The notes below the pieces were generated by a model that was given only the letters and a program-made list of their open reading frames with translations, was not told the DNA's origin and did no database searches. Below, one piece after another: positions 2,269 through 64,000 of a stretch of DNA of 64,000 nt. Source of the DNA: Diphasiastrum complanatum (taxonomy: Eukaryota; Streptophyta; Lycopodiopsida; Lycopodiales; Lycopodiaceae); assembly GCA_029204225.1 (NCBI GenBank), contig CM055112.1, forward strand, positions 24,900,529 to 24,964,528, written 5' to 3'. Position 1 is the first letter of the stretch, and each line of letters begins with the position of its first letter. Made by a program: the position numbers and the translations under genes.

Positions 2269-2376
2269 AATCCTTGGCTTCCTCCATGATGTAGATCATG
2301 TCATCAAACTTCTTTCGAGCCCTACGCACACGTTCTGATCGCCTGGGTTCTGTGCTTGCAGGGGCTTCAATTTCCT

Positions 2377-2919: not shown

Positions 2920-3063
2920 TCGCTCGCTCAGTCTGTTTTGCTGGGGATTGTAAGGACATGTGAGTTCCCTCTTAATTCCATTCTCCTTACAAAAACTCTC
3001 AAAGTCCTTGCTGATGTATTCTCCACCATTGTCCGTTCTGACAGTGGACGGAATTATGCCCTT

Positions 3064-27329: not shown

Positions 27330-27879
27330 ATGTCTGGAAAAAGTTGGAAGCATGACAATGATGGAAGGCACCACCAGGCAACTGAGAGGCCTGTTCTTTG
27401 TGTGAATAATTGTGGGTTTTTTTGGGAGTAAGGACACAATGAACTTGTGCTCAAAGTGTTACACATCAAATTCTGTCATCAGGCGAGATAGCAACTTCAC
27501 TGGAATAAGTTCTGAGGGAACTGCCACGACGTTAGAAACACCAAACTCCGAATTGACATCATCCCGGCCGGTTGATTTACTGAGGGAAAATAGAGACGTA
27601 GCTACAGTTGTATCACATACTGAGCTTGCTGACATTAGAAAATCTGTCGTTGGTGTTTCGACAGAAGCTACTGCATCTCATGATCCTAGTCGCTGCTTTT
27701 CTTGTAGCAAACGTGCTCCATTGTATGGCTTAATTAAATGCCGATGCAGAAATTTATTTTGCTCATTGCACCGATACGCTGAAACGCATCAGTGTACAAC
27801 TGATTACAAAGCGATTGGGCGCGATGCCATCGCAAAGGCAAATCCTGTAGTCAAGGCTAAAAAGTTAGAGATAATTTGA
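27330..27879 (+). pseudogene. A20/AN1 SAP, copy 2 (frameshifted)
   Basis: Same gene as 5870-6430. From the ATG at 27330 the frame reads into the A20 finger, but a run of seven T (six in copy 1) near 27417-27423 shifts the frame and gives a stop within six codons. The rest continues in the next frame from 27412 with the second A20 cysteine pair and a complete AN1 finger: C-x2-C-x11-C-x-C-x4-C-x2-H-x5-H-x-C, including the fifth cysteine missing in copy 1. The tail GRDAIAKANPVVKAKKLE is intact. The lesion is a single homopolymer insertion, so a sequencing error must be excluded; taken at face value it is a pseudogene. Confidence 0.88.
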
Positions 27880-29117: not shown

Positions 29118-29552
29118 TATTATTTGTGCCTTAATCTATTTTCATTTAATTTGAATATAAGAGTGCATGGATTTCTATTCGCTCATATTGTGCAAACTTT
29201 CACAATATAGAGTTGATTGTTCGGTCATAGAGTAACTTAGTCTTTCTATTTCATCCTTGTATATATGAGGTAAGGGAGTACCAATTTCTTTTACTTATAT
29301 TTTAGAATAGTTTGGAGAAAGCTATGTTTCAGATTAATGTATGCAATATTTATTGAATGATTTGACCTTTAAAATACATAACAAGGCTGAAGGCAAGAAC
29401 TTTTGCTCACTTTTTTTTTAGTAGGTACTATTTTACTACCCACAGAATTTGTGAATTAGTATGTGCTTGTGAAGAATTCAAGTGGGGGTGGTCTAATGTT
29501 GAGGCTCACAAAGAACATTCTTATTCAATTTTGGTAAAAATGGGAAAGTTCT

Positions 29553-29555
<3 letters not shown>
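29118..29555 (+). repeat. D repeat, second tandem unit
   Basis: Copy of 28290-28760, non-coding. Confidence 0.65.

Positions 29556-29642
<87 letters not shown>
29556..29642 (+). repeat. (GA)n microsatellite, about 87 bp
   Basis: GA run between D and leader, the same place as 8820-8969 and 52364-52504. Confidence 0.96.
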
Positions 29643-29645
<3 letters not shown>

Positions 29646-29886
29646 GGGTATCTTTCTTCTCTTCTGCTCTTAAATCTCATTCACTCAAGGTTCATAAGTT
29701 GGTTCTTTTAGGAGATTGCCTTGGAATGTGTCATTTTCCACACTCCCTATGATCATGTGTATAACAAAGTATCTATGAGGTGTCCATGGCAAGTAAAAAG
29801 CATTCTCAATGCATGATCGATCCTATATGTGACTTCCTCTTGAAATATACCCTCTCAAATAGTTATTGAGTCATGTGAGGTGGCTT
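29643..29886 (+). repeat. Leader segment, second tandem unit
   Basis: GCGGGGTATCTTTC leader, ending GAGGTGGCTT where the LTR begins. In 7194 and 52743 the same position continues into gag. Confidence 0.65.
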
Positions 29887-30556
29887 TGTTAGCAGATTTC
29901 AGAGAATCCCTAGATGCCGAGCCAAGCTGAAGACACAGAGTATCTCTCACCATGATCGAGGAGGTCTCAGAAGGAGGAGGGTAGAAGAATCTGAGAGCCG
30001 AGCATGAGAGCCGAGGATTACTAGCTAGGATGACAGTAATTTTCTATGTGAGCCTACATGGTGTATCCTGAGAGAAGGAACGACCATGTAGTAGCTAGTA
30101 ATGTTTCATAGGCAATGTAAATAAGTGTATATCCCCTTAAATAATTCAGAGTGAGCCACCTTTTGATGGTGACCTCTAGTGGTAGGGCTATTTCCACATG
30201 TAATTTCTAAATTAGTGGAATTGCCACTTGGGCTCCACATGGGCAGCCCTCTTGCTTATTTAAGGCTTCCCTCTCTTGTGAGAGATCTTTTGATTGTATT
30301 GTCATTTCTTTTGATTGAATAAAGAAGATCTTCCACGAGTTCTTGCTTGTTCAAGGCTATCTTCTTGAGTGAGATTCCTATGAGCATGTTCTGATTTCTT
30401 TGTGTGATTGTGGATTGATTAAATTTCTTGCTTACTTTCTTGCTTTGTGGAATGTAGATGTGAATTAATTTTCTTGTTTTTTGATTTTGTAGTTTCAGCG
30501 TGCAGGTAAACTATAGAGGGTGAGATTGTGGATCTGATTTTGCATATTCACTAACA
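29887..30556 (+). mobile_element. LTR of another element, solo or truncated (670 bp)
   Basis: Ends form TGTTAG...CTAACA. It contains TATTTAAGG near 30256 and AATAAAG near 30319, plausible TATA and poly(A) signals in the plus direction. No primer site follows at 30557, and the flanks (GGCTT, ATCCT) are not duplicated, so it is not a clean solo insertion. Confidence 0.65.
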
Positions 30557-31085
30557 ATCCTGTCCTTGATTGTTCTTGGGTATTCCAAGCATCAAAAAAT
30601 GGGTGTTTCTTGATTCTTGGGCTGCTGGAATGCTATTAGGAAGTTAGCTTTCTTGATTCTTGTTTCTTGTTGAGTAGCTTAATCTTGTTATTGTATTATT
30701 CCCTGATTTCCTAAGATAGTTTGGTAGTTAGATTATAGATTTGCTCTCTGTCCAAAACGTTAATCTGTGCTTGAGCAAGGAATTGGTTGCATGGCCTGTA
30801 AATGCATGTAGCTGAGTGAACGTAACTATTTCATCCCACTGACAAGCTAGGAAACTTAGAATTTGCTTTGTACAAGAACACAAATTATGCTACACAGTGA
30901 CGCAAACAGAAAACACTCTCCACAGCAAGCTCACATAGCAACTGTATCTCTCAAAATGAAATTACACTGTACATATAGTTGTTCACTTAGGCAGCCCATG
31001 CATGACCCAGGTTACCGTTGGCGGGACGCGTGTCCCGTCGACTTGCCTCATGGCAAGGCCAACTGATCCTTATCCACTGATAGGA
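30557..31085. other. Unassigned region upstream of copia-2
   Basis: About 530 bp without a recognised gene. The right part should include copia-2 3' LTR sequence (LTR on the minus strand), but I could not match it to the 5' side, so no boundary is given. Confidence 0.4.
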
Positions 31086-31121
31086 CCCACAGTACAGTAA
31101 CACAGTGATTCTACTTTAATT
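31086..31121 (-). repeat. copia-2 LTR terminal segment (3' side)
   Basis: 36 bp matching 40267-40302 at 34 of 36 positions. On the minus strand it lies just after a purine-rich run (AAGGGAGAGAG, 31122-31135), so it is the start of the copia-2 3' LTR. Confidence 0.65.
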
Positions 31122-31271
31122 CTAACTCTCTCCCTTAAAGTAGAGTCTATTTTTAATACAGTCATGTACATAGCTTTAAAGTCTGCAAACTTTAAGTACA
31201 GAAAGCTTTGATCTAAACTTATCAAACTTTTCTCCAATAAGTGGCTTAGTGAAAATATCAGCTAGTTGTTC

Positions 31272-31997
31272 TTATGTGCTACAATAAACAACATGAATTT
31301 CACGACTCAGTAGCCTCTCACGTATAAAGTGATACTGAATCTCAATGTGTTTAGTTCTCGCATGGAACACTGGATTCTTTGCTAGCTGAATGCCACTCTG
31401 ACTGTCGCTATGTAAAGTTGTGGGATTTTTCTGCTTCATGCCAATTTCTTCCAAGATTTGTCTCAACCATATAGCTTCATGTGCTGCACTACACATTGCC
31501 TTATACTCTACTTTTGTGGTGGAAAGAGCAATTGTACTATGCTTCTTACTAGACCAGGAAAAGCAACTACCACAAAACTGGAATACATACCCTGTGGTGG
31601 ATCTACGATCGTCATAGTCACCTCCCCAATCCGCATCCACATAGCCACACAACTCAGGTAAACCATCATGCTTCCTATAGATCAAGCCATACTCTGAAGT
31701 TCCTTTCACATAACACAAAATGCGTTTAGCTACCTTCCAATGTGTTTTCGTAGGTGTTGTCATAAACTGACTTTCAATGCCAACAACATAGCATATATCT
31801 GGTCTATTCGTGGTAAGGTAGATCAAGCTCCCTACTAACCGTCTATACAGCGTAGCATCAAATGACTGTGACTCATCAAGCTTAGAAAGCTTTTTACCTG
31901 GTTTAATAAGAGTGTTTACTGGTTTGCAATTCTGCAACCTAAACCTGTGCAACAACTCTTCGACATACTTCACCTGCGTTAAACCCACCCACTTCAT
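31272..31997 (-). pseudogene. copia-2 RNase H and RT tail
   Basis: Contains RRLVGSLIYLTTNRPDICY, then VDADWGGDYDDRRSTTGYVF of RNase H, AIWLRQILEEIG and NPVFHARTKHIEIQYHFIRE. At the STTEAEY position it reads STTKVEYKA, so the first catalytic glutamate is lysine. The frame stops at 31272 before the normal VADIFTK end, which is out of frame beyond. Confidence 0.9.
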
Positions 31998-32394
31998 GTC
32001 CTTTTTGCCACACTTCTACTCCAAGACAATAATGCATCAGGCTGAGATCTGTCATCTCGAATTGTTCCATGAGGTCTTTCTTGATCATGTCTATCATCTC
32101 TTGATTATTTCCCGTAATAATCAAGTCATCAACATAAAGAGCAATCAAAGCAACCATACCATCAAAGCATAAGACATATAGATTTGGATCAGAATGTGTT
32201 CTCATCATTTCCTTTGAACGAAAGTAGGCATCAATTCTGCTATACCACGCACGTGGTGCTTGTTTAAGACCATAAAGCGCTTTCTTCAAGCGACATACTT
32301 TATTTTCTTGTCCCTTCGCTACAAAGCCTTCAGGTTGATCCATGAACACTTCATCTTCTAACTCACCATTTAGAAAAGCAGATTTCACATCCAT
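31939..32394 (-). pseudogene. copia-2 reverse transcriptase palm
   Basis: 151 codons with [31 protein letters not shown] and the catalytic [10 protein letters not shown], the RVT_2 core. The frame differs from the flanking RT pieces at 32482-32667 and 31272-31997. Confidence 0.92.
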
Positions 32395-32481
32395 CTAATG
32401 CAAAGGCCAACCAAAATGTGAAGCTAAAGCAACAAGTAGAAGTAGAGTATTCCACTTACAAACCGGTGCAAAGGTCTTCTC

Positions 32482-32667
32482 CTAGTCGATGCCTTTACTT
32501 TGTGCATACCCTTTGATCACCAATCTTGCCTTGTGCTTTGCTATACTTCCATCTACATGGTACTTAGTCCTGTATACCCATTTGCAACCAATGGGTTCCT
32601 TGCTAACTGGTGGTTCTACTAAGTCCCATGTGTTATGCTTAGCAATTGCCTCCATCTCCTCTCCCAT
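32482..32667 (-). pseudogene. copia-2 RT N-terminal piece
   Basis: Encodes MEAIAKHNTWDLVEPP, GCKWVYRTKYHVDGSI and KARLVIKGYAQ, the conserved start of copia RT. A stop or frame change separates it from the palm piece at 32394. Confidence 0.9.
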
Positions 32668-32997
32668 GGCCTTGACCCAAATGTCATCATCCTTCGCTTC
32701 ACCATAAGTTGAAGGTTCTTTGTTTTGAATAATGCTAGATAAGAGAGCATAATTTGCTTCATACCTTTTAGGTTGAGTCTTCTCTCTTGTTGATCTTCAT
32801 AACTCTCCCTGGTTAGATGATTCTGGAAAGTTATCCATGTCGTGGCTCTCCAATAATCTCTCAAACCACTTAGGGAGCTTCATGTCAAGTGATCGGCTTC
32901 CTGGTGAAAATGTATCCCACTGTACATCCTTCTCCTTGCATTTGTCACCTACAACTTCAATCCTTCTTGCACCAAAAGGTTTGTCCCACCTCTCCAA
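32619..32997 (-). pseudogene. copia-2 integrase-RT linker
   Basis: Two overlapping frames of variable linker sequence without catalytic motifs. Placed here only by position between integrase and RT. Confidence 0.6.
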
Positions 32998-33431
32998 CCT
33001 GTCTCTTGAGGTTGAGTAGTAGTATCTTGAGATGTATCCTCATGTTCATCACTCGGAAGGTCAATGAATGGATTATCATCAGGTGGTATCCTCACTATAC
33101 CATCTTTTGCACTGGATGTGTCTATCTTCTCAGCATCCTCGTCTTCATACATTTTGGATTCATCAAAGATAACATCACGGCTTATATGTATTTTGTTTTC
33201 CACTGGATCAAAACATCTATAGCCCTTCACACGATCATCATATTCTAGGAATATGCACTTGATAGCTTTTACATCAAGTTTACATCTCTCTTCCTTAGGA
33301 ATGTGTACAAAGGCCTTACGTCCAAAGATTCGCAAGTGGTTTACCTTTGGCTTCTTCTTCGTGAATGCTTCCTCAGGTGTTGTCTTTGGTATGGCAATGG
33401 TAGGACTTCTATTTTGAAGATAGACTGCCAT
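32949..33431 (-). pseudogene. copia-2 integrase C-terminal region
   Basis: Contains VNHLRIFGRKAFVHIPKEER and KCIFLEYDDRVKGYRCFDP, the post-catalytic integrase region, and an acidic linker. It follows the core piece at 33441-33803 after a short frame break. Confidence 0.88.
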
Positions 33432-33440
33432 GCTATATGC

Positions 33441-33803
33441 TTATGACCAAAAATCTTTTGGTAGTTTCATCTTGGCTAGCATAGATCTGGCACTTTCCAC
33501 AATCGTACAATTCTTGCGCTCAGCTACACCATTGAGAGCAGGAGTATGAGCTTGCGTAAATTGTCTTTTAATCCCACATTGATCACAAAGATCATTGAAG
33601 TCATTAGACTTGTACTCACCTCCACTATCTGATCTTAGGACTTTGATCTTCCTACCTGTCTGATTTTCGACCAATGCTTTGAAGCTCTTGAAGTTATCAA
33701 ATGCATCTGATTTCTTCTTCAAGAAGTAGATCCACGTCTTACGTGACATATCATCAATAAAGGTCATGAAACAGAAGGATTTACCTAAGGACATGGTCCT
33801 CAT
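33441..33803 (-). pseudogene. copia-2 integrase core
   Basis: Begins within the rve domain: FMTFIDDMSRKTWIYFLKKKS, VLRSDSGGEYKSNDF (second catalytic D) and ALNGVAERKNCT (catalytic E, spacing 35). The first catalytic D should lie just upstream in another frame. Confidence 0.9.
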
Positions 33804-33884
33804 AGGCCCGCATAAATATGTGTGGAGTAAATCCAGAATGTTTTTTGCTCTTGCAACACCCCCTTTATTGAACTTCTCTCGATG

Positions 33885-34397
33885 CTACTTCCCATATACA
33901 CAAGATTCGCACATCAATTTCAAGTGATCTTCTATGGTAGGCAATCCTGTTACCATCTCCAATTTTCTCATCAAACTGAGACTTCCCAAGTTCAAGTGAC
34001 CAAGCCTCTTATGCCACATATCAGTTTGGGATGGAATGGATAATACAAGTCCATGTTGCCCCTTAATTGTGGCATTCAACCTGTACAATTTTGTATTGGG
34101 CTCTCTTACTCCATCCGCAATAACTTTGAGCTTTTGGTTCACATTCTTCACAAAGCAATGATCATGGGCGAATTCTACTTTCAACTTTTGATCAGTAATG
34201 ACTCCATCATAAAGTAGATTTTTCTTCAAACCTGGTATGTAAAGTACCTCCCTGATTATCCTACTTTTGCCATCAGGTTGTTGGATTGAAACGGTGCCTA
34301 TCCCCTTGATCTTGCACACCTCACCATTTGCTTGTGAAACAGATGTTCCATTATCCACCACTTTCAAACTACTGAACCAATTCTTGTTACCTATCAT
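33885..34397 (-). pseudogene. copia-2 protease C-terminal part and pre-integrase
   Basis: Carries REVLYIPGLKKNLL after the protease, then the pre-integrase zinc region MWHKRLGHLNLGS...CESCVYGK. The minus-strand sequence just before it, about 34392-34420, encodes IDSGATRHMIG, so the protease active site DSG is retained. Confidence 0.9.
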
Positions 34398-34506
34398 GTG
34401 TCTTGTGGCTCCCGAGTCAATATACCATGTTTGATCATCTTGATTAATGACAATGCAGATATGAGAATGCTAGAGTCTTCAATCTCACCCTCATCAACAA
34501 GGTTAC

Positions 34507-41155: not shown

Positions 41156-41807
41156 ATAATATCGCGAGTTCCTCAGGCGTCAAAGACAACCATCGTCTGA
41201 TCAGAAATTGATGAGTTGTAGACGTCCGTGTTCTGATCAAAGTGAGTATACAAGCGAGATCAAACAGCAATGAAAGTGCATTCAATCACAACAAGCATTC
41301 ATCTACATTGTACACAGATAAAAATGTGCTATTGCTATATTACACTGAAGCACACATTAGAGGAGTTCTCAATATCAAAAAGACCGTTTGTAAAGATACT
41401 TTTATTTTTGTTCTTTAGTTTCGACTGTCACCAGGCCCAATCAAAATACACAGATGTGAAATCTACGTAACGTAGTTCAAATTAACTAAAAAATAAAAAT
41501 GCAATATAGAAAACTTTGAAATTTGTGTCCGGGCAGCATGGACGTATCCCATTGGTTTCTTCTTCCTGCCCGACACGTGCTAATCTATCCGATGTCAATA
41601 CCTCAGGTTAAATTTACTTGACTATGTTGGTTAGTATAATGAAATTTTCTAACTATACTAGTTACAGTTATAGAAATATAGTATGTACAGTTACATAAAA
41701 TATGGTATACAAAGTAACTGTGACTATGTTGGCATTCACATTAGATTAAATGTGATACGAAAAATTGAAATTAAGTATCATATCAGAGAGATTTTGGCGC
41801 CCAAGCT
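41156..41807. other. Spacer upstream of interrupted gene
   Basis: About 650 bp, AT-rich. Contains repeated TATAGTTACAGTTATA-like palindromic words near 41630-41730. No TATA box or other promoter element could be assigned with confidence to the gene at 41808. Confidence 0.5.
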
Positions 41808-42123
41808 TTGAGAATAGCAATGGCAAAGAGACCCAGATCTACAATCGATTCTGTGATTCTTTACAATGAGAAAGATGAAGCTGATAACTGGAAGCCAACA
41901 AAATATACGAAGAACTCATGGGTATTGCTGCATCCATCATCAAAGGGCAATTTTCGACAAAAGAAAAGAGCAAAAATGACTTACGAATCTTATTGGAAAG
42001 CAAAACTTTTGGAGTTTAAGACTACTCCGAGAGGACAATCAATATCAGAAGTCTTAGTGCAACATGTATATATGCATTCAGAAATCAAAGTACATGATAT
42101 CAATCCTCATGATCATCAAAAAT

Positions 42124-42236
42124 GTAATTGTAAATATATCAAAACATATGCACTCTATAGCAATCATAGGTGATTTTCTTTATTAATGCTCTTCAGATTA
42201 TGATGTAAATGCTTCAACATTGTTTTTTTCTTTTAG
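42124..42236 (+). other. Predicted intron of the interrupted gene
   Basis: Donor GTAATT at 42124 (or GTAAAT at 42130), pyrimidine-rich end TTTTTTTCTTTTAG at 42223-42236. Only donors leaving one base of a codon match the exon 2 frame. The GTGATT at 42170 does not. Confidence 0.6.
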
Positions 42237-42301
42237 ATTTCTATCCATCATGCATAAGTGAATGGGACCCCGCACAATCACTTGTAGGAATATTAGACGT
42301 G

Positions 42302-42306
42302 ATTCA
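42302..42306. repeat. Target-site duplication ATTCA, left
   Basis: ATTCA before copia-3, repeated at 48168-48172. Confidence 0.97.
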
Positions 42307-42959
42307 TGTGAAAAACTCAGATCCAAAAGATGCTAAAGTTTCATAAAGATCTTGGCCATGGAAGTTATGCACATCTAGATTGAAAAAATGATAGAAATTG
42401 TGATGTTAAGCATACTAAACATCAACTAAACATCAAGATCTGATCATAAGCTTCCACAAACAGAAACTTGCTGTCCCTGTCCGTACTTCAGAGCCTACAA
42501 CCTGCATTTCACACGTGTGAAGCCATAGCAACAAAGAAATCACAATTCTAGTGGCTAGAATGCAAGATATGAACAAAAAAGTGAGAGAGAAGAAGATGGA
42601 TCTTCAAAGAGCATAACATTCATTCAATAGAATGAAAATGAGATGTGTACATACTCGTGGAGATGGCTATTTATAGCAGCCATAGTGCCTCTTGGCCACT
42701 TGTCTTATGATAGGCTAAAATTGGGGTCCAATAGGATTCACCCATATACCTAGAAATTTGGTCAAATAGGAATGCACCAAATTATGAGCCAATAGAAGAG
42801 CTCCACACTCGACCTCCTCTAATTAATGTGACCTCAAAAGTAGTGTACACATACTTTGGGCCTCTACATACATGTATGAACCTATCTCTAACTTTTATTT
42901 GGCCATAGGCCTACAAAATCTCAAGTTAGGAAAATACTACTAGTTGACAATTTTTCACA
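42307..42959 (-). repeat. 3' LTR of copia-3 (653 bp)
   Basis: Plus-strand ends are TGTGAAAAA and TTTTTCACA. On the minus strand its first bases, TGTGA, supply the stop codon of the gag-pol ORF (TGA at 42955-42957). Confidence 0.97.
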
Positions 42960-45900
42960 CTCCCTCTTCAACTAGTTTTAGCATAGATTTAGAAAGTACA
43001 CCAAGACTTGTTCTATGCTTGAAAAATAAGTCCTTTCCCAATGCTTTGGTAAAGATATCAGCCACACATTCCTTTGATGGGACATGTTCAAGCTTGATCT
43101 CTTTTGCCAACACTTGTTCTCTCACAAAATGGTAAGCCACCTCGATATGTTTGCTCCTTGCATGGAAAACCGGATTGCTTGCTAGACTTTGGGCTGAAAG
43201 GTTGTCACAAAAGATGATTGGACTCTCTGAAAAATCCAGCAAATGAAGCTCCATAATCATCCTCTTGATCCACACCATCTCCTTTGTGCATGATGTCAAA
43301 GCTTTGTACTCGGCCTCACTAGAAGAAAGTGATATAGTTGCTTGTTTCTTCGACATCCATGAGATAGCTCCATCACCTATGAAAATAGCATGTGCATTTA
43401 TGGATTTTCTATCCATAAGGTCTCCTGCAAAATCTGAATCTGAAAAACCAAATAAGTTAGGTGATGAGCCTCTATAAACAATGCCAAAATCTTTTGTTCC
43501 CGAGATGTATCTCAAGGTCCTCTTTCCTAGTTTCCAATGTTCTATGCTAGGATCTTGCATGAATTGGCTTAATCTACCAACACAATAAGATAAATCAGGT
43601 CTTGTGATGGTTAGATATATAAGAGAACCTATTAGCTTCCTATAGAGAGTAATGTCCTCGAAGGATCTTTCATTACCTCTTATAGTTAGCTTTACATGTG
43701 ATTCCATAGGTGTATCAATAGGATTTGCATCTACCATATGAAATCTATTGAGAATAGAAATAGCATACTTCTCTTGTGAAATAAAAGTGATTTGAGAAGT
43801 TCTAATTACTTCTATTCCTAAGATATAGCTCAAAAGACCAAGATCATGCACTTCAAATTCCTTTTTTAGTGCTTTCTTGATATCTTCTATATCTTCCTTG
43901 TTCCCTCCACTTAAAATAATGTCATCCACATAAATTAGAAGGATTGTAACATCATTAGCACTAATTCTAAAGTAAAGTGAATGATCATACTCACTCATAG
44001 TGAAGTTTTGAGAAAGTAGAAAAGAGTTAAGCCTAGCATACCAACTCCTTGGTGCTTGCTTAAGACCATACAAACTTTTTTGTAGAAAACACACATGATT
44101 AGGCTTGCTATGAGAAACATAGCTCTCGGGTTGCTCCATGTAGACTTCCTCTTCAAGATCACCATTCAAGAAAGCATTAGAAATGTCTAATTGCCAAAGA
44201 TCCCATCCATAAAGAGTTGCAAGGGAAATGATTACTCTTATGCTCACCATCTTTGCCACGGGTGCAAAGGTTTCCTCATAGTCAATGCCATGCTCTTGAG
44301 CATAACCTTTAGCCACCAACCTTGCCTTCAACTTGTTGATAGATCCATCTTGATTTGTCTTTACCTTGAAGATCCATTTGCATCCAATTGCACTTTTGCC
44401 CTTTGGAAGCTCCACCAATCTCCATGTGTTGTTCTTCATAAGTGCTTCAAACTCAAGATCCATTGCTTGGATCCATTCCTCTTTTTGCCTTGCTTCATCT
44501 ACACATGAAGGTACATCAAAAGAAGTTAGGAAAGCATAGTTGGATCCATCCACCACTTGCTTACCTTTGCCATCATAAGTGAGCCTTGAGGGTTTCACTT
44601 TATGCCTTGGAGTTCTCCTTGGAATTTGACTTGAAGAGGCTTCTTCAACATCCACATCCAATGTGTCATCAACTCCATTGTCATCAAGCACATTAGTTGC
44701 AACAACACCATCATCACTTGAAACAACTTTTGGAATGTTACTTTCATCAAAAATGACATCCCTACTTGTGAACACTTTCTTGATTGAAGGAACATAAATC
44801 CTATATGCTTTGCTTACTTCACTATAACCAACAAAAATGCCCTTTCTTGAAGATGGATCCTCCTTAGTTCTATCATCAAGAGTAATGTTGAAGTAGCAAA
44901 TGCATCCAAAAGTTCTTAGAAACTTGACATTAGGCTTCATACCAAACAAAGCTTCAAAAGGGGTTTTTCCTTTCAATACAACACTTGGCCATCTATTGCA
45001 TAGGAAATTTGCACACAACAAAGCATCACTCCAAAAAGGTTTAGGAAGATTAGCATTCAATCTCATTGCCTTTGCACTCTCACACAAGGTTCTATTCTTC
45101 CTCTCGGCCACTCCATTTTGTTGTGGTGTTCTTGGACATGTGTACTCCCTCTTGATCCCATGCTCATCGCAAAAGGATTTGAATTTGTTAGAAATGTATT
45201 CACCACCATTGTCGCTCCTCAAGCATTTGATTTTGGTTGTAAATTGAGTCTCAATAGCAACTTTGAACTTGACAAACACATCAAACACCTCATCCTTGCT
45301 CTTTAGTAGATAAACCCAACAAAATCTACTAAAATCATCAATGAAAGTTACATACATCTTAGCACCTCCATTGCTAATTGTAGTAACACCATGAATATCC
45401 GAATGCAAGAGAGAAAAAGGCATCTTAGATCTAGATATAGATCTAGTATATGGCAATCTATGTGATTTAGACAAAGCACATTCTTCACAAACATGATTCA
45501 AGCAAGTAAGAGACTTGGGAAGTCCCCTTACTACCTCCTTTTTGGCTATTACCTCCAAGGCCTTGTAGTTGAGATGTCCCATCCTTTTATGCCATACCTC
45601 TTGAATTGACATTTGTTCATTTGCCATGCATCCAACTTGGTTAGCAACAACACATGCATCAAGCTTGAACAATTTCCCTTGCCTTTTCCCTTTTGCAATG
45701 ATACTACACCCCTTTTTGATCAAGCAAGCATCACCATCAAACTCAACTTTGAATCCTTTGTCAAGCATTTGGCTTACACTAAGTAAGTTCTTGGTAATGG
45801 ATGGAATGAGCAAAACATCTTTCAATTCTATATTCCTATTTGTAGAAAGTGAAATAGGAATTGTGCCAATCCCCTTGATTGCACACTCACCATCATTTGC

Positions 45901-46905
45901 GGTATAGATTACCTTCCTATCACCATCAAATGCCATTAAAGATGAAAAATACTCTTTATGATATGTCATATGAGAAGTGGCTCCACTATCAATCCACCAA
46001 GGATCAATGTCTCCATGATTAGCCAACAAGCAAGATGACATAACAAAAGCATCATTTGAAAGAAGCTCATCCCCACCCTCATCAATAGTTAGATTGGTTT
46101 GCTTTTCCCCTTGATCCCTCTTTTTCTTAAAACAATCACTAGCAAAATGCCCTTTGACTCCACAATAGAAACATTTTAGCTTAGATCTATCCTTCTTTTT
46201 GCCAAAAGTAGAGTGCTCACCTTGGTCTTGCCCTTTAGACCAATTGCTTTTACCTTTGCCCTTGAACTTGCCTTTAGAGAACATTGCCTCCTCTTCTCCT
46301 CCTTGAGATGTAGAAGATGCTCCCACTCTTGCTTGCAACCTGAATTCTTCAGCCAACAAGACCTCTTGCAAGTCTCCAACACTTGGTAAACATTTTTGGA
46401 TAGCATAACTTTGAACAAGATTAGCATGATCATCCAACAAGCCATTGAGAATCACTTGAACAAGCTCCTCATTATTTATGCCATCATTAATGCATGCTAA
46501 CTCATCATTCAATGCTTTAACTCTCAAAACAAAAGCATGTCCACTCTCACTCTTCTTTTGCATACAAGAAAAGATTTGCCTTCTTAAAGTCAACACTCTA
46601 GAAGTAGACTTGGATTCATAAACCTTCTTCAAGGCTTCCCAAGCTTCACTAGATGATGTGCACTTACCAACCTCTTTGATAAGCTCATTTGTCACATTCA
46701 TCTTGATCATGTGAAGGGCTTTCTTTGCCCTCTTGTCATACCTCAATTGTTCTTGAGGTGCCAAAGGTCTCTCCTCCACACCTACAACAATATCCATCAA
46801 CTCATTCATCTCAAGCAAAGACTCCATCCTTACTTTCCAAGTAGAATAGTTGAGGGAGGTAAGCCTATCATTGCTTTCCAACATGTAGCCTCCATTTGTA
46901 GCCAT
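42955..46905 (-). CDS. copia-3 gag-pol polyprotein
   Basis: 1316 residues, one frame, ATG start MATNGGYMLES. Order: gag about 1-240 (LNYSTWKVRMESL, SEAWEALKKVYESKS); CCHC knuckle 245-258 (CFYCGVKGHFASDC); protease DSGA at 306-309; pre-integrase 436-480 (VWHKRMGHLNYKAL, CEECALSKSH); integrase with D503, D565 and E601 (35 residues between the last two); IN-RT linker about 720-810; RT about 828-1070 with YVDD at 992-995; RNase H with FSDSDFAGD (about 1154-1162), E1197 in SSSEAEYKAL and CDNLSAQSL (1233-1241). Gag and pol share one frame, usual for plant copia. The polyprotein should be cleaved by its own protease, reverse transcribe its RNA in cytoplasmic particles and integrate in the nucleus. 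No lesion seen. Confidence 0.97.
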   Translation of the reverse strand: MATNGGYMLESNDRLTSLNYSTWKVRMESLLEMNELMDIVVGVEERPLAPQEQLRYDKRAKKALHMIKMNVTNELIKEVGKCTSSSEAWEALKKVYESKSTSRVLTLRRQIFSCMQKKSESGHAFVLRVKALNDELACINDGINNEELVQVILNGLLDDHANLVQSYAIQKCLPSVGDLQEVLLAEEFRLQARVGASSTSQGGEEEAMFSKGKFKGKGKSNWSKGQDQGEHSTFGKKKDRSKLKCFYCGVKGHFASDCFKKKRDQGEKQTNLTIDEGGDELLSNDAFVMSSCLLANHGDIDPWWIDSGATSHMTYHKEYFSSLMAFDGDRKVIYTANDGECAIKGIGTIPISLSTNRNIELKDVLLIPSITKNLLSVSQMLDKGFKVEFDGDACLIKKGCSIIAKGKRQGKLFKLDACVVANQVGCMANEQMSIQEVWHKRMGHLNYKALEVIAKKEVVRGLPKSLTCLNHVCEECALSKSHRLPYTRSISRSKMPFSLLHSDIHGVTTISNGGAKMYVTFIDDFSRFCWVYLLKSKDEVFDVFVKFKVAIETQFTTKIKCLRSDNGGEYISNKFKSFCDEHGIKREYTCPRTPQQNGVAERKNRTLCESAKAMRLNANLPKPFWSDALLCANFLCNRWPSVVLKGKTPFEALFGMKPNVKFLRTFGCICYFNITLDDRTKEDPSSRKGIFVGYSEVSKAYRIYVPSIKKVFTSRDVIFDESNIPKVVSSDDGVVATNVLDDNGVDDTLDVDVEEASSSQIPRRTPRHKVKPSRLTYDGKGKQVVDGSNYAFLTSFDVPSCVDEARQKEEWIQAMDLEFEALMKNNTWRLVELPKGKSAIGCKWIFKVKTNQDGSINKLKARLVAKGYAQEHGIDYEETFAPVAKMVSIRVIISLATLYGWDLWQLDISNAFLNGDLEEEVYMEQPESYVSHSKPNHVCFLQKSLYGLKQAPRSWYARLNSFLLSQNFTMSEYDHSLYFRISANDVTILLIYVDDIILSGGNKEDIEDIKKALKKEFEVHDLGLLSYILGIEVIRTSQITFISQEKYAISILNRFHMVDANPIDTPMESHVKLTIRGNERSFEDITLYRKLIGSLIYLTITRPDLSYCVGRLSQFMQDPSIEHWKLGKRTLRYISGTKDFGIVYRGSSPNLFGFSDSDFAGDLMDRKSINAHAIFIGDGAISWMSKKQATISLSSSEAEYKALTSCTKEMVWIKRMIMELHLLDFSESPIIFCDNLSAQSLASNPVFHARSKHIEVAYHFVREQVLAKEIKLEHVPSKECVADIFTKALGKDLFFKHRTSLGVLSKSMLKLVEEGV
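42960..42969 (-). other. Polypurine tract of copia-3
   Basis: The minus strand reads GAAGAGGGAG directly before the LTR. It also codes for the last residues of the polyprotein (EEGV). Confidence 0.9.
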
Positions 46906-47502
46906 GTTGCAATGATTGATCTCTGATCTTTGACCTGTTCCAATGCACTAAGCACTCTCTTGAATCAACAAATGAAACACAAGAAGAAATCACAAAGATT
47001 TGGAACCTAAAACCTTACTTTTTCTCTCTTTTCCTCACTTTTTTCTCAATTTTAGCCACTAGTTTTATGATTTCTTGATCAAACCAAGACCAAACCTCAA
47101 TATACTTGCTTTTCCCTCACTCCTAAGATTGAAATACACTCTTGAATCATTCAGCAAACTGAAAATCAGAGGGTTACATCAATTTTGAAGTTTTTGACAT
47201 GAAGAAGCAAGAAATTGAATCAAAAAACTATATGCTAGAATGGAAAACTAATAGGATCTTGTTGGATCTTGCATCTCCCTCTTTCCAAAACAATTTTTGT
47301 CTCCTTATTCTGATAAGTACAGAGGGAATTCGCCCTACTTCAATTGAAATGCATACAAATGATGTTTTGATCACAAAGATCCAATTTCTACACATAAATC
47401 AACAAGATTTTTAGCTAGAAACTTGATTGGAATGCTACAAAAGCAAACTCGCCCACAAATCTCTTCTAAATCTGGCAAAACCTGCACATTTGGCCGCCTA
47501 AT
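46906..47502 (-). other. Untranslated leader of copia-3
   Basis: About 600 bp between PBS and gag ATG, non-coding. It carries the packaging and translation leader functions expected here; no motif was assigned. Confidence 0.75.
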
Positions 47503-47514
47503 GCTCTGATACCA
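47503..47514 (-). other. Primer-binding site of copia-3
   Basis: The minus strand reads TGGTATCAGAGC immediately after the LTR end, a perfect match to the plant initiator Met-tRNA PBS. Confidence 0.97.
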
Positions 47515-48167
47515 TGTGAAAAACTCAGATCCAAAAGATGCTAAAGTTTCATAAAGATCTTGGCCATGGAAGTTATGCACATCTAGATTGAAAAAATGAT
47601 AGAAATTGTGATGTTAAGCATACTAAACATCAACTAAACATCAAGATCTGATCATAAGCTTCCACAAACAGAAACTTGCTGTCCCTGTCCGTACTTCAGA
47701 GCCTACAACCTGCATTTCACACGTGTGAAGCCATAGCAACAAAGAAATCACAATTCTAGTGGCTAGAATGCAAGATATGAACAAAAAAGTGAGAGAGAAG
47801 AAGATGGATCTTCAAAGAGCATAACATTCATTCAATAGAATGAAAATGAGATGTGTACATACTCGTGGAGATGGCTATTTATAGCAGCCATAGTGCCTCT
47901 TGGCCACTTGTCTTATGATAGGCTAAAATTGGGGTCCAATAGGATTCACCCATATACCTAGAAATTTGGTCAAATAGGAATGCACCAAATTATGAGCCAA
48001 TAGAAGAGCTCCACACTCGACCTCCTCTAATTAATGTGACCTCAAAAGTAGTGTACACATACTTTGGGCCTCTACATACATGTATGAACCTATCTCTAAC
48101 TTTTATTTGGCCATAGGCCTACAAAATCTCAAGTTAGGAAAATACTACTAGTTGACAATTTTTCACA
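47515..48167 (-). repeat. 5' LTR of copia-3 (653 bp)
   Basis: Same length as the 3' LTR; no mismatch found by reading. Contains the promoter of the element. Confidence 0.97.
47875..47884 (-). promoter_or_regulatory. Likely TATA box in copia-3 5' LTR
   Basis: The minus strand reads CTATAAATAG, about 283 bp into the LTR, a plausible distance for a U3 TATA element. The same box is at the equivalent place in the 3' LTR. Confidence 0.6.
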
Positions 48168-48172
48168 ATTCA
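48168..48172. repeat. Target-site duplication ATTCA, right
   Basis: Second copy of the 5-bp target. Exon 2 continues at 48173. Confidence 0.97.
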
Positions 48173-48602
48173 CTCTAATGTTGGAAAGCTGCAATACAGA
48201 GGAAGAAGTCCAAATGAACTTGCAGATTGTGATATCTATTTTTATGAATCTTTATATACACCACAAATAGATGGAGGTTTTGGCAAGCTCGAAGCAATTC
48301 CATTGCCTAGTTTTCAAAGTGATGAGTGGCCTACTTCTGAAAACATTGTTTTTAAATCCTTGAGATGCAAGCTACTCATTGATATTAGAAATGCTATGAA
48401 GATAAGCACAGGCTCGAAAATTGTTCATCTAAGTTGGTTTATGTCATTGCATATATTTGTTGATTTTTTCTCGAGTGCTAGTGTTCGTAGGACACCAACT
48501 TTATTTGTTTGCAAGGATTTATCAGATGAGACCATTGTCTTGGATCTCGACCGAAGCACTCTATTCATTAGAGGAGTTTTGAGCTCCAAAAAGACCCTTT
48601 AA

Positions 48603-48921
48603 AAATTCGTGCAAGATGTAGTTTATATTACTAAAATATTATAATACTAAAACTTTTGACTTGCCATAACTTTTTAATTGTAGCTTAGAATTATGTCATC
48701 TAGCATGTCATTGGAAAGCCCTTGTCGAGCGCTTTCAAATGCACCAAACTCCGCTAAATCTGGACTTACCACTAAAAAGTTATGCCATTTTTAGTGTGGA
48801 ATCAAAATGTGAACTCAAAAAGTTACGTTACATAGATTTCAAATTTGAGTGTTTTGATTGGTCCATTTGTAAGAAAAAATTGAGAAAAAATATAAAAAGA
48901 ATCTTTACAACTGGTCTAATG
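48603..48921. other. Downstream region of interrupted gene
   Basis: About 320 bp, AT-rich, non-coding; presumably 3' UTR and flank. No clear poly(A) signal chosen. Confidence 0.5.
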
Positions 48922-49088
48922 AGATCTCGACCGAAGCACTCTATTAGATCTCGACCGAAGTACTCTATCTGATCTCGACCAAAGCCATTCACTCATCTCT
49001 CGACCGGACCTTTCTATCAGCTCTCAACCGGACCTTACTATCAATTCTCAACCGAGGATTTCCTATCAACTCTCAACCGAGAGGTTTG
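48922..49088. repeat. 24-25-bp minisatellite, about seven units
   Basis: Degenerate tandem units starting near 48922, 48946, 48970, 48995, 49019, 49043 and 49068. The consensus is close to AGATCTCGACCGAAGCACTCTATT and decays to the right. Its first 23 bp also occur identically inside the coding part at 48543-48565. Confidence 0.85.
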
Positions 49089-49445
49089 ACTTCCAACCTG
49101 AACCAAGTCAACTTCAAAACAACATCTACTTTATTATTTGACTAGGTCTTAGTGTTTGCCAAATACCACAATTCTTTCCAAATTTATTGCAAAACCCTAC
49201 AACCAAAAAACAAAACAACTATGCCATTTGGACACCACCACTTTATTCGTCTCTGACTAATATTTAAAAAAATAAAAAATAAAAACAGTCAAGTTACCAA
49301 AGAGTCCAAGAGGCCTACTTGCCCAATCCTAAGGTACTCTAGATTTGTTATGGATTGTCCTTACGATCCAAATTCCACAGAGGACTATCCACTAGAGATG
49401 GTCTCTCCATCTATCGAATAGGCTCGATTCAATAGATATTCTAGG
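49089..49445. other. Spacer before gypsy gag
   Basis: About 360 bp without a recognised gene. The right part may be the start of the gypsy gag region (CCACAGAGGACTATCC near 49375). Confidence 0.45.
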
Positions 49446-49837
49446 ATGAAATCTCAAGTCCAAGAGCCATCAACAAACCCATTTGACAGATGGAAACCCA
49501 TGTGTTTTGAAGCTCCATACGATCGACCACACTTTCGTGCTGCAGAATCTTCACATGCACGAGCTAATTTAAACGGCGCTTTTGCAAATAATGTTCCGTG
49601 TACTGAAAAACGAACTCCCAAGTTACATTTACCTAAGTACGATGACAACACTAACACTCAAAGATTTCTTCAACTCTTTGAGAACACATGTGATGTCTAT
49701 GGCGAGACATCACCAGAAGCCATGGTTTAGCTCTTTTAAATGACCATGATTGATCGAGCACGAGAATGGTTTTTTAACCTTGATCGTGAAGATAAACGAG
49801 ACTGGTCACTCTTGAAGGAAGCCTTCATCAAACGTAC
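49446..49837 (+). pseudogene. Ty3/gypsy gag fragment
   Basis: Encodes KLHLPKYDDNTNTQRFLQLFE and, after stops near 49728-49740, AREWFFNLDREDKRDWSLLKEAFIKR. This is the retrotrans_gag pattern of plant gypsy elements (A..W...L....I..W..L...F..RF). The sequence switches to B repeat at 49838 through the shared bases GTACCTT. The next part of the same kind of element reappears at 53390. Confidence 0.82.
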
Positions 49838-50560
49838 CTTCCCTTAACAACTCTACATACACTTGATGAATTTCATCTTATTCTAGAAGATTGTTATGGA
49901 TGCCATCAAGATTGACCTAAATTTCCTTGCATGAAAATCAAACTGTGAAAATAAATGTTGTGAGAAGCAGATGTCAACCTCAATGCTTGGAGTATCAAAG
50001 GGTACAATGTCATACATTGTAGTGGAACAACGCATGGACGTTCTGGAACACTAATTTTTTAAAAAAAACTTTGAAAATTTTACTAAGAAAACCCTTAATA
50101 CATTAAAAAACACATGATTAGCAATAATAAGAAAATATACATACTGCCTAAAAGAATTTATACTAAAAAAGTTTAAAAATAAAAACTGAATAAATCATGT
50201 GTTTTATTCAAAAATTTCGAAAAATAATTTAAGTGCACATTCCAAAAAACCTTAATGCTTTTTTCAAAAATGCGTTCCGGAACAAGGCCTTGCAATTATT
50301 GTGTACATCTATAACTACACAAGTTTCATGATGAAATGGATCATGTAGAGTTTGTGTGTGAGATGAAGATCTTCTGATGCTCATACATTGCACTCAAGGC
50401 ATAAATCTTTCTTGTACCTACACGATCAACAATTGCAACCTCACTATTCACATGCTTCATTGCTCTCAAAAGAATTATTGAGGCCTCCAATCTCTTAAGG
50501 GGCCAAAAAGAGACTTTAGGTCTGTCAGATGGTCACTCCAACTAAGGGCTCAAGACATGG
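49838..50560. repeat. B repeat tail, copy 6
   Basis: Only the tail part of B (from TACCTTCCC), running into the SAP copy 3 upstream region as at 26853. Non-coding. Confidence 0.7.
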
Positions 50561-50975
50561 TGGCCACAGCTATAAAAGGCTGACATCCTCAAACACATAA
50601 TAAGTTGTCAATTGTGATATGAGATGGAGCATAGCCGAGTTCTCTCCTGCTCGCGATTTCGTGTTTTTGCCTTGTTGTGTATCTGCTGTGTCTTGAAAGC
50701 TATGGCTATAATGCACCTTCTGTCAATGCTTTGGTGAATATTAAGCATAAATCAAGCTGGAGTTCGTTTCCTTCAATTTTGTCTATTGTCAAAGATCTTG
50801 TTGCAATAAACCTTGCCCTTGTTCGTAGTGCATTGTGTTTTCACGTCCAGGAAGACACGCAATTAGCGGTGCCAGCAAACCTTTCGTTGCTAGGTCTGCA
50901 TACACGCCTTCAAAGCGGAAAGGTACCTGTGAAGCAGATAGCTCCCGAAGGGTCGTGTAATTAAGGCGCAAGTAA
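50561..50975 (+). other. SAP copy 3 upstream region
   Basis: About 415 bp homologous to 26854-27329, ending at the SAP ATG. A long open stretch (50677-50964) is not conserved in copy 2 beyond the first part and is treated as leader. Confidence 0.55.
50571..50578 (+). promoter_or_regulatory. Possible TATA box of SAP copy 3
   Basis: TATAAAAG about 400 bp upstream of the ATG. The equivalent site of copy 2 is mutated (TATGAATG) and that of copy 1 is deleted. The long distance would fit a leader with an intron. Confidence 0.45.
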
Positions 50976-51513
50976 ATGTCTGGGGAAAGTTGGAAGCATG
51001 ACAATGATGGAAGGAACCACCAGGCTCCTGAAAGGCCTGTTCTTTGTGCAAATAATTGTGGGTAAGGACACAATGAACTTGTGCTCAAAGTGTTACACAT
51101 CAAATTTTGTCATCAGGCGAGACAACAACTTCACTAAAATGAGTTTTGAGGGAACTGCCACGACGTTAGAAACACCAAACTCCGAATTGACATCCTCCCA
51201 GCCGGTTGATTTACTAAGGGAAGGTAGAGACGTAGCTACAGTTGCATCACATACTGAGCTTGCTGACATTGGAAAACCTGCCGCTGGCGTTTCGACAGAA
51301 GCTACCGCATCTCATGATCCTAGTCGCTGCTTTTCCTGTAGCAAACGCATTCCATTGTGTGGGTTAATTAAATGCTGATGCGGAAATGCATTTTGCTCAT
51401 TGCACCGATACGCTGAAACGCATCAGTGTACAACTAATTACAAAGCGATTGGGCACAATGCCATCGCAAAGGCAAATCCTGTAGTCAAGGCTAAAAAGTT
51501 AGAGAGAATTTAA
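50976..51513 (+). pseudogene. A20/AN1 SAP, copy 3 (deletion and stop)
   Basis: Third copy of the SAP gene. An 11-bp deletion after the second A20 cysteine (lost between GTGGGT and AAGG, about 51062) removes GFFGS and shifts the frame. In AN1, the CGA arginine codon between the third and fourth cysteines is TGA (51376-51378), truncating the finger. Beyond the stop the remaining AN1 codons and the GRDAIAKANPVVKAKKLE-type tail are still readable, including the fifth cysteine. A pseudogene with two lesions independent of those in copies 1 and 2. Confidence 0.9.
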
Positions 51514-51835
51514 ATGATTGACAGTTGAATATTGCTTAAACAACTTTCTTATTCCATTGAGTCCTAAGCAATACTCATTAATAAGTTAATAGAATGTAGT
51601 TAGTTACATCTCTATCGCTCTCTCTCTCTCTCCCCGCTATGCTATCTATCTTTTCTGTGTGATGCTACATGAATTCTCTGAAGGTATAATTGTTTGATCT
51701 CAATATATGTTTCTTATACCTCCTCGTAATTGAAGCTTAGCAAAATCAAATCTGATGTGTGGGTAACGGGCCTTGGAAATTAGATAGCAACATTCGTGCA
51801 GGTTTGTGACTTGCTTGCTATGATACTCTAGTTTA
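51514..51835 (+). repeat. SAP 3' flank joined to A repeat
   Basis: Short SAP 3' flank shared with copy 1, then at about 51576 a jump into the A repeat (TTAATAAGTTAATAGAATG), so the first part of A is deleted. This junction differs from that of copy 2. Confidence 0.65.
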
Positions 51836-60860: not shown

Positions 60861-60896
<36 letters not shown>

Positions 60897-61614: not shown

Positions 61615-62269
61615 TGTGAAAAATACAGATCCTAAGTGGATCTAAACTCCAAGATCATTGGCTTGAATGCTTGCACTCCAAACTACATAAGCTAGGAATT
61701 GGCAACACATTCTATGCTACCTAGAATGCAAAGAACTTGATCAAAAAGCATTTATCACAAATGGAAACTTCCATAAACATCAAGTGCGGCCCAAAATAGC
61801 ATTATACAGTCCATAATACATCAGCCTACCACTTTTGGAAAGCACCTAAGATCATACACAATAGCTTGAAGACAATACACACAACAATGCTCTCAATGGA
61901 GGAAGAAACAATGACAATGATCTATTGATCTCAATGAAGCATACAAAAGGTTTCTCCAACCTGTTCTCCACGACTTCCCTACTATTTATGGATGAGGAAG
62001 ATGACTCTCTCTCCTCTCTCTAGAAGGTACTTGACCCTAGATATTCCCTATATAGGAAAAATAGCTAAAAATGGCTTATATGACCAAAATACATCAAAAT
62101 GGTCTCATTTTGAAGGGTATGAAGTTTGACACTTCATCATACTGAAAAAATACAGTAAATAAAAACATTGTGGCCTGGTTCACACGTGCAAAACTCCAGA
62201 ACCAAAACTATTTACAATTTTAGCCAATTTAGGTCTCAAACTAGCTAGGAAATGTTGACAATTTTCACA
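61615..62269 (-). repeat. 3' LTR of copia-4 (655 bp)
   Basis: Plus-strand ends are TGTGAAAAAT and ATTTTCACA, like the copia-3 LTR, but the body is much diverged. The left flank is TGTTC (61610-61614); the right TSD is outside the window. Confidence 0.92.
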
Positions 62270-64000
62270 CTCCCTCTTCAACATTGGATGCTAGTTTCAA
62301 CATAGTCTTTGAGCACATTCCAAGATTAGATCTATGCATTAAATATAGGTCCTTTCCCAATGGTTTGGTGAAGATATCAGCCACACACTCCTTTGAAGAG
62401 ACATGTTGAAGCTCCACCTCTTTGGCAATGACTTGATCTCTCACAAAATGGTGAGCAATCTCAATGTGCTTGCTCCTTGCATGAAAAACAGGATTGCTTG
62501 CCAAGCTTTGGGCTGAAAGGTTATCACAAAGTATGATTGGAGTCTTCTCTAGTTCCAGCAAGTGAAGATCCAATAACATCCTCTTGATCCAAAGAATCTC
62601 CTTGGTGCATGTTGTTAATGCCTTGTACTCGGCTTCGGTGGAAGATAGAGAGATAGTTGGTTGCTTCTTTGATAGCCATGAGACCACTCCATCTCCAAGA
62701 TAGATTGCAAAGGCACTTGTTGACTTCCTATCCATTTGATCACCTGCAAAATCTGAATCTGAAAATCCACAAAGGTTAGGTGTAGTACCTCCATACAAGA
62801 TGCCAAAATCTCTAGATCCCGAGATGTATCTAAGTACTCTCTTTCCTAGCTTCCAATGAGCCTCACTAGGATCTTGCATAAATTGACTTAGTTTACCAAC
62901 CACAAAGCTTAGATCAGGTCTTGTGATGGTTAACCATATAAGAGATCCTATTAGCTTTCTATAGAGAGTAATGTCCTTGAAGGATCTTTCATTACTTCTT
63001 GTAGTTAGCTTTACATTTGATTCCATAGGAGTAGAAACAACTTTACAATCTTCCATATGAAACCTTTTTAGAATAGAGTTAACATACTTTTCTTGACATA
63101 TGAATGTAGATTTAGAAGTTCTAATAATCTCTATTCCTAAGATATAATGAAGTTTACCAAGATCTTGAATTTCAAACTCTCTTTTGAGTGCCATCTTGAT
63201 TTCATCTATATCTAGATTGTTACCACCACTTAAGATAATGTCATCAACATAGATCAAAAGTAAAGTGATATCATTTTCATTCAATCTAAAGTAGAGAGAA
63301 TGATCATACTCACTCATAACAAAGTTCTGAGAAAGTAAGAAGGAATTGAGCTTAGCATACCAACTCCTTGGTGCTTGCTTTAGCCCATACAAACTCTTTT
63401 GGAGATAGCACACATGATTAGGCTCATCATGTGAAACATAGCCCTCGGGTTGCTCCATGTAAATATCTTCTTCAAGATCACCATTCAAGAAGGCATTAGT
63501 AACATCCATTTGCCACATATCCCAATCATAAAGAGTTGCAAGAGAGATTAGAATTCGAATAGTTACCATCTTTGCCACGGGTGCAAAGGTCTCATCATAG
63601 TCAATACCATATTCTTGAGCATACCCCTTTGCCACCAACCTTGCCTTGTACTTGTTGATTGATCCATCTTGATTTGTCTTGATCTTGAAGATCCACTTAC
63701 AACCAATTGCCTTCTTGTCCTTTGGAAGCTTTACCAACCTCCATGTGTTGCTTTTGATGAGTGCTTGATGCTCATGATCCATGGCTTGGATCCATTCCTT
63801 CTTTTGAATTGCTTCACCTACACAAGTTGGTTCATCAAAAGAGGTAAGAAAAGCAAAGTTAGAGTTGTCCACCACTTGCTTTCCTTTTTCATCATAGGTT
63901 AGCCTTGATGGCTTAGCCCTTTGCCTTTGAGTCTTCCTTGAAGTTTGCTTTGGAGTGGCATCTCCATCTTCATCCAAGACATCTTGCACATCATGATGAT
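62265..64000 (-). CDS. copia-4 pol: RT and RNase H (partial)
   Basis: At least 574 open codons reaching to within 11 bases of the window edge, so the true start lies outside. The linker KPSRLTYDEKGKQV is followed by RT with [47 protein letters not shown] and catalytic YVDDIILSGG. RNase H has FSDSDFAGDQMDRKST, SSTEAEYKAL, CDNLSAQSL and KECVADIFTKPLG. All catalytic residues are present, so this half looks functional. Amino-acid similarity to copia-3 is high throughout. As in copia-3, the last residues EEGV are coded by the polypurine tract and the TGA stop lies in the LTR end. Confidence 0.95.
   Translation of the reverse strand, partial: HHDVQDVLDEDGDATPKQTSRKTQRQRAKPSRLTYDEKGKQVVDNSNFAFLTSFDEPTCVGEAIQKKEWIQAMDHEHQALIKSNTWRLVKLPKDKKAIGCKWIFKIKTNQDGSINKYKARLVAKGYAQEYGIDYDETFAPVAKMVTIRILISLATLYDWDMWQMDVTNAFLNGDLEEDIYMEQPEGYVSHDEPNHVCYLQKSLYGLKQAPRSWYAKLNSFLLSQNFVMSEYDHSLYFRLNENDITLLLIYVDDIILSGGNNLDIDEIKMALKREFEIQDLGKLHYILGIEIIRTSKSTFICQEKYVNSILKRFHMEDCKVVSTPMESNVKLTTRSNERSFKDITLYRKLIGSLIWLTITRPDLSFVVGKLSQFMQDPSEAHWKLGKRVLRYISGSRDFGILYGGTTPNLCGFSDSDFAGDQMDRKSTSAFAIYLGDGVVSWLSKKQPTISLSSTEAEYKALTTCTKEILWIKRMLLDLHLLELEKTPIILCDNLSAQSLASNPVFHARSKHIEIAHHFVRDQVIAKEVELQHVSSKECVADIFTKPLGKDLYLMHRSNLGMCSKTMLKLASNVEEGV

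Follow-up and report, generated by a model that had tools for sequence, protein, structure and literature searches.

Nested mobile elements behind an interrupted spliced reading frame in Diphasiastrum complanatum, and a DNA transposon family with a histone H3-like gene

Is an open, spliced reading frame of no recognised family, cut in two by a young retrotransposon, the remnant of a host gene? The question is raised by a 64,000-nucleotide stretch of Diphasiastrum complanatum DNA (assembly GCA_029204225.1, contig CM055112.1; C21:24900529-24964528, hereafter the window), in which a preliminary description had read such a frame, here called open reading frame 1 (ORF1), as a gene that was intact until recently and of which functional empty alleles might persist in the population. 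We conclude, with a probability of roughly 0.93, that mobile elements are nested here, a fragment of a high-copy, four-gene DNA transposon and a related miniature inverted-repeat transposable element (MITE) having undergone local duplication before a copia element entered. The copia insertion in ORF1 is an ordinary finding, one mobile element within another; the family of the interrupted element is less commonplace. Coordinates are collected in Table 1.

The number of copies rules out a single-copy host gene. A 65-bp query from exon 2 (42237-42301), searched against the plant's own 1.74-Gb genome, gave 40 scored matches at 95-100% identity, window included, of 993 candidates, and 20 ten-kb stretches around such matches were fetched for comparison of boundaries. 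Similarity starts at window position 41351-41357 in 15 of the 20 loci, with differing flanks and a common left end CATTAGAGGAG near 41355, the other starts being 41387 (L016 and L027), 41633 (L019), 41877 (L009), and 42209 (L023). On the right, the match stops at 48532 in 13 loci, at 48535-48549 in L015, L024, and L011, and at 48461 in L012; L010 and L017 have only MITE-end similarity right of the copia junction, and L009 alone matches the window beyond 48549. A common continuation past 48532, absent from the window, is present in 12 of 16 oriented copies; as for the others, L015 and L026 leave the common sequence within ~25 bases, L012 differs, and L009 is window-like. The native frame of ORF1 continues for more than 100 codons in L019, L022, and L025. 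Since this shared continuation is missing, the window copy is a left-end fragment, and the comparison indicates that the window carries ~1.3 kb from the left end of a ~9-kb high-copy DNA transposon. One of the fetched loci, L011 (C533:27300-37299), which was left out of the duplication test given below, contains the left part twice, the two copies pointing in opposite directions and their flanks being mirrored, perhaps through a palindromic insertion or an assembly fault.

Beyond 48532, 22 residues and the stop of the window frame are coded by foreign DNA, consisting of a 24-bp minisatellite unit (48543-48565), which recurs from 48922 on, and the left end of the MITE, within which lie 12 codons, stop included. 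The preliminary description had the frame ending at TAA 48602; a stop codon does stand there (48600-48602), inside the MITE, and it is not the native end. The MITE belongs to a large family, whose scored matches include the window and L009. Sixteen of the 40 were fetched, picked among those matched over almost the full length; they measure 377-379 bp, with left end CATTAGAGGA in all 16 and right end TCCTCTAATG in 14, L046 and L048 showing one change. An inverted repeat of the window (41381-41474 and 48824-48917) was considered as the two ends of one element and rejected, because its right arm is part of the MITE, which has ends similar to those found in the large family.

ORF1 starts at ATG 41820. 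With the copia element left out, its frame stays open across a GT-AG intron for 268 codons (donor GT 42124) or 270 codons (donor GT 42130), stop included. The earlier start at 41808 is thus replaced, and the 271-273 codons given before were a few too many owing to that shifted start; the open spliced frame, its intron, and its continuation beyond the insertion all stood, with splice sites kept in 18-20 of 20 covering relatives (L023 lacks the stretch). Also borne out was the splitting of exon 2 by a very young copia with ATTCA duplicated, the two 653-bp long terminal repeats (LTRs) showing no difference. A single open frame on the minus strand of this element carries the Pfam domains Retrotran_gag_2, zf-CCHC, gag_pre-integrs, rve, and RVT_2 in that order. 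By its gag, integrase, and RVT_2 in copia order, its identical LTRs, and its 5-bp duplication, the inserting element is a very young Ty1-copia, and no unusual trait was seen in it. The protein of ORF1 had been left unnamed; its pieces have no significant Pfam match and no significant relative in the PDB, and the structure predicted for a 119-aa piece is uninformative (mean predicted local distance difference test score, 31.7). Because a large family shares it, the open frame exceeds chance, yet that family is a repeat. In a large plant genome, the copy number of a spliced open frame without known domains should be checked before the frame is annotated as a gene.

A copia-free version of the locus, which the preliminary description had anticipated, does exist, as a paralogue. 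This locus, L009 (C21:25184000-25193999), lies ~245 kb away, holds a single ATTCA, and matches the window at 99.5% over 41877-42306 and at 99.2% over 48168-51728. Other parts of it correspond to the window at 98.4% (29375-33094) and, inverted, at 99.0% (18246-16028), but in a different order, and L009 is thus a segmental duplication; the duplicated block right of the element resembles stretches around two window ORFs (5870-6427 and 27406-27876) that encode A20/AN1 zinc fingers. All sequence left of 41877, including the ATG and the first 19 codons, is gone from L009, and its exon 2 has lost two residues in frame; its ORF1 pieces are open. Because this copia-free copy has the same MITE-joined end as the window, the 3′ end of ORF1 was already foreign when the copia arrived, and we infer that the copia inserted later than the segmental duplication.

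What the complete element may look like is indicated by three copies with both inverted ends, E2 (C2:20439105-20448409; 9.3 kb), E7 (C7:71809545-71818225; 8.7 kb), and E8 (C8:26328955-26342751; 13.8 kb), the last of which holds a nested copia. The inverted ends of the family are CATTAG...CTAATG, E8 reading CAATAG on the left. As in a terminal inverted repeat (TIR; class II) DNA transposon, copies at dispersed places have well-defined inverted ends (E2, E7, E8, and both ends of 16/16 MITEs). The window matches only the first ~1.3 kb of the three, besides the nested copia of E8 and short end similarities. From the left end, all three have the order ORF1 (+), H3-like (-), ORF3 (+), and ORF4 (-), and all of these frames are broken to some degree. 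In E7, the H3-like protein has matches to the Pfam family Histone (PF00125; E 7.3e-28) and to H3 chains in the PDB (E 6e-23), and it carries a C-terminal extension of ~170 residues or more; in E2 and E7 its gene lies between the inverted ends. By a motif scan, the histone fold is open in 3 of 25 loci (L016, L021, and L028, on C18, C7, and C2), two of them with a start; at these loci the gene stands ~2.7-3.8 kb inward from the left end. ORF3 and ORF4 pieces gave no significant Pfam match, nor did a 91-aa ORF4 piece have a significant PDB relative; in several copies, however, a candidate second D of ORF4 is followed by the motifs C(2)C and H(4)H, and 8 of 28 loci searched contain this motif stretch. 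Among extra right-end loci, L041 matches only the nested-copia part of E8, L043 matches the family and has no end repeat, and L042 gave no match. Identity between long copies (E7, E8, E2, E9, and E18) dips mid-element in 6/6 pairs, the lowest 500-bp bin lying at ~4.0-4.5 kb with 81-92%, compared with 92-96% in the first and last bins of the same pairs, which suggests mixing between lineages that may have exchanged end or central segments.

Could ORF1 descend from a functional host gene, still present elsewhere, that a DNA transposon captured in the manner of a Pack-MULE? One report describes gene capture by TIR elements as well documented in plants (PMC3538342), and a spliced frame with conserved sites just inside the left end is compatible with it. 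On the other hand, ORF1 occupies the same place in E2, E7, and E8, a weak argument with a sample drawn by an ORF1 query, and the absence of any significant Pfam or PDB relative speaks in the same direction, leaving capture improbable. We give still less credence to the idea that the large element derives from a virus, perhaps a giant virus. Some large DNA viruses do have H3-like genes, and a multi-gene cargo including a histone fold would suit such an origin; the element is small for this reading, however, at 8.7-9.3 kb, its inverted ends are short, a MITE has similar ends, and Pfam found no capsid or polymerase domain in the eight pieces searched. In IMG/VR, the 119-aa ORF1 piece has no relative, and a 114-aa ORF4 piece gave only a chance match of 14 residues (L034), which was rejected since the 66-aa frame that holds it runs opposite to the contig's long frames.

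The transposon family appears to join its target without target-site duplication, which is unusual. The sample comprised 20 insertions, namely 16 MITE copies, one MITE in L024, and E2, E7, and E8. None of them shares 3, 4, or 5 flanking bases, five have one identical flanking base, and none has AAA|TTT flanks. For the 16 MITE copies, no choice of boundary yields a consistent duplication, two high counts at length 2 stemming from the inverted ends, and none has an 8-bp match in its flanks (five with fewer than 8 right-flank bases). At the empty sites of E2 in L015 and L025 the flanks abut exactly, and for E7, E8, and the L024 MITE no empty site was present in the sequence examined. Integration of this kind narrows the possible transposition chemistry.

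The H3-like gene shows past purifying selection, as read from 12 aligned copies besides E7 (matches covering <60% were dropped). In its tail and fold, changes shared by at least two copies are synonymous to nonsynonymous 32:26 and singletons 18:62, where a ratio of 0.32 is expected (p 1.4e-4 by Fisher's test; binomial p for the shared changes, 5e-7). All p values in this paragraph are rough, as sites and copies are non-independent. The median ratio of nonsynonymous to synonymous divergence (dN/dS) of the fold is 0.23 in the most diverged fifth of pairs. Stops occur in 8/12 copies and frameshifts in 4/12, and therefore the majority of the copies sampled are no longer functional. Shared synonymous changes are in similar excess in the C-terminal extension (24:32), ORF3a (23:29), and ORF3b (17:20), but not in ORF3c (4:13); in ORF4, few changes are shared (4:3 and 2:6). 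The shared changes of ORF1, 9:23 and 8:27 (17:50 in total), are neutral-like (p 0.66), and its window copy, with 2 synonymous and 5 nonsynonymous private changes when L009 is left out, is not clearly under purifying selection. The ORF1 copies are less diverged, and past constraint on ORF1 may therefore have existed. The view of the preliminary description, that copia disrupted a host gene until then intact and that functional alleles free of the insertion may survive in the population, can draw on the open spliced frame, the identical LTRs, and the copia-free copy, but with high copy number, a 3′ end already foreign in L009, and a near-neutral substitution pattern it is the least credible of all, and an allelic empty site would not rescue it, the sequence still being the 5′ fragment of a high-copy transposon.

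The nested locus thus has several layers. The oldest is the ~1.3-kb 5′ end of a four-gene DNA transposon with CATTAG...CTAATG ends, whose left-end gene, ORF1, is spliced and has no known domain; beyond 48532 the remainder of this copy is absent and a related MITE follows, so that the frame accidentally enters foreign DNA and meets its stop within the MITE. Together with A20/AN1-related sequence, this block was duplicated locally into two copies ~245 kb apart, and as the newest layer a copia integrated by ordinary staggered cuts into ORF1 exon 2 of one duplicate, producing its 5-bp duplication. In the large element, ORF4 is the candidate transposase, presumably with the CATTAG ends as its substrate, which it would join without target-site duplication, and the same machinery may mobilise the MITE. 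The H3-like gene and ORF3 would be accessory genes, probably aiding expression or integration in chromatin. For the H3-like gene, an anti-silencing or chromatin role is the most likely, at about even odds; less likely, in our view, is a captured gene that was retained for a while but served no such function. A selected H3-like gene in a transposon would allow asking whether a mobile element uses its own nucleosomes.

Several points weigh against parts of this account. The window ORF1 keeps an open frame and splice sites, both of its pieces are open in at least 5/20 loci (a motif-based lower bound), and some ORF1 copies could be expressed; the ORF1 pairs of highest synonymous divergence have a median dN/dS near 0.3, although picking such pairs biases the ratio down. 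All element copies were found via an ORF1 exon or MITE query, and sampling by an ORF1 exon cannot reveal how often the element is without ORF1. Two identical flanking bases occur in 3/20 insertions, as against ~1.3 expected, and a few copies may have a 2-bp duplication. ORF4 has no Pfam family match, and its candidacy as transposase draws on motifs read by eye, not on catalytic D and E residues aligned with known transposases. These motifs are incompletely kept: both C of C(2)C in 5/7 covering loci (L025 and L026 have Y as the second), the candidate D in 6/7 (G in E8), the first H in 6/6, and the second H in 4/5 (Y in E2). The window MITE is ~24 bp shorter than the fetched copies.

Known systems resemble the family in part. 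The nearest likeness in cargo is with fungal hAT elements, which carry an H3-like gene in Pyrenophora tritici-repentis (PMC3538342) and in Pseudocercospora fijiensis and relatives (PMC6710886). Those of P. fijiensis measure 9.5-9.9 kb and make 8-bp duplications, and their extra H3 copies were destroyed by repeat-induced point mutation (RIP) (PMC6710886). Common to both are an H3-fold gene between inverted ends and a similar length, whereas in the present family Pfam shows no hAT domain, target-site duplications were not seen (no 5-bp flank match in 20 insertions), the ends are different, and the genome is that of a plant; unlike the RIP-destroyed copies, its H3-like gene shows signs of past purifying selection. 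The CMCT clade (EnSpm/CACTA, Mirage, Chapaev, Transib, Plavaka, ESTA, and Lanisha), whose elements are reported to make 2-5 bp duplications, is similar in the CA...TG termini and in the C(2)C and H(4)H motifs of ORF4, which resemble the pattern described for it (PMC12730594); the present family differs in that 0/20 insertions share 3-5 flanking bases and 3/20 share two, with no transposase match in Pfam. Spy, of the PHIS superfamily, is a DNA transposon that also lacks target-site duplication, but it prefers AAATTT (PMC4482050), a target absent from our 20 insertions, and the ORF4 pieces have no Harbinger-type Pfam match. Transposons with chromatin or anti-silencing genes are known, among them carriers of Vandal proteins, SET-domain, and TET/JBP genes (PMC12730594). 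Among the records listed for queries of open-licence PubMed Central text, several of them broad and combined, none dealt with a plant transposon that has a histone gene, nor with the present family. We tentatively raise the possibility, which we think rather less than even, that these elements form an undescribed group of plant DNA transposons. Its members would integrate with neither a target-site duplication nor a set target motif, would mobilise a MITE family whose copies probably number in the thousands, and would encode an H3 variant of their own that is under selection; this variant might help them to evade silencing, or might serve in marking or loading the chromatin where they lie.

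Table 1. Features of the nested locus in window coordinates (position 1 is the first base of the window).
Feature	Position	Strand	Evidence
Left terminal inverted repeat of DNA transposon (CATTAGAGGAGTTCTC...)	41355..41389	+	15/20 loci start at 41351-41357; inverted match to E7/E8 right ends, 35 bp at 97%
Left part of DNA transposon fragment (5′ region, exon 1, intron, exon 2 start)	41355..42306	+	92-95% identity to loci covering full length
ORF1 exon 1	41820..42129 (alternative end 42123)	+	ATG 41820; GT 42130 in 20/20, GT 42124 in 18/20 covering copies
ORF1 GT-AG intron	42130..42236	+	Acceptor AG 42235-42236, in 19/20 copies
ORF1 exon 2, part before copia	42237..42306	+	40 scored matches at 95-100%, window included
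ATTCA, left copy of target-site duplication	42302..42306	+	
Copia LTR	42307..42959	-	653 bp, 0 differences to other LTR
Open copia gag-pol frame	42955..46947	-	Retrotran_gag_2, zf-CCHC, rve, RVT_2
Copia LTR	47515..48167	-	653 bp
ATTCA, right copy of target-site duplication	48168..48172	+	
ORF1 exon 2, part after copia	48173..48532	+	Match ends at 48532 in 13/20 fetched loci; last family-shared stretch
Foreign junction with 24-bp minisatellite unit, first foreign residues	48533..48565	+	Repeat families D2/D3; only L009 of 16 oriented copies has it
MITE-like element with related ends, last codons and TAA	48566..48919	+	40 scored matches at 93-100% of 3201 candidates
24-25-bp tandem array adjoining MITE	48922..49104	+	

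Elsewhere in the window, the two A20/AN1 reading frames, which we take to be of the stress-associated protein type, sit in repeated, rearranged blocks of the region. Further copia-related pol/gag pieces, some with broken frames, lie at 1474-3063 (-), 14018-15704 (+), 31200-34500 (-), and 62250-63840 (-). A run of 32 G at 60863-60894 is unusual in this AT-rich window.

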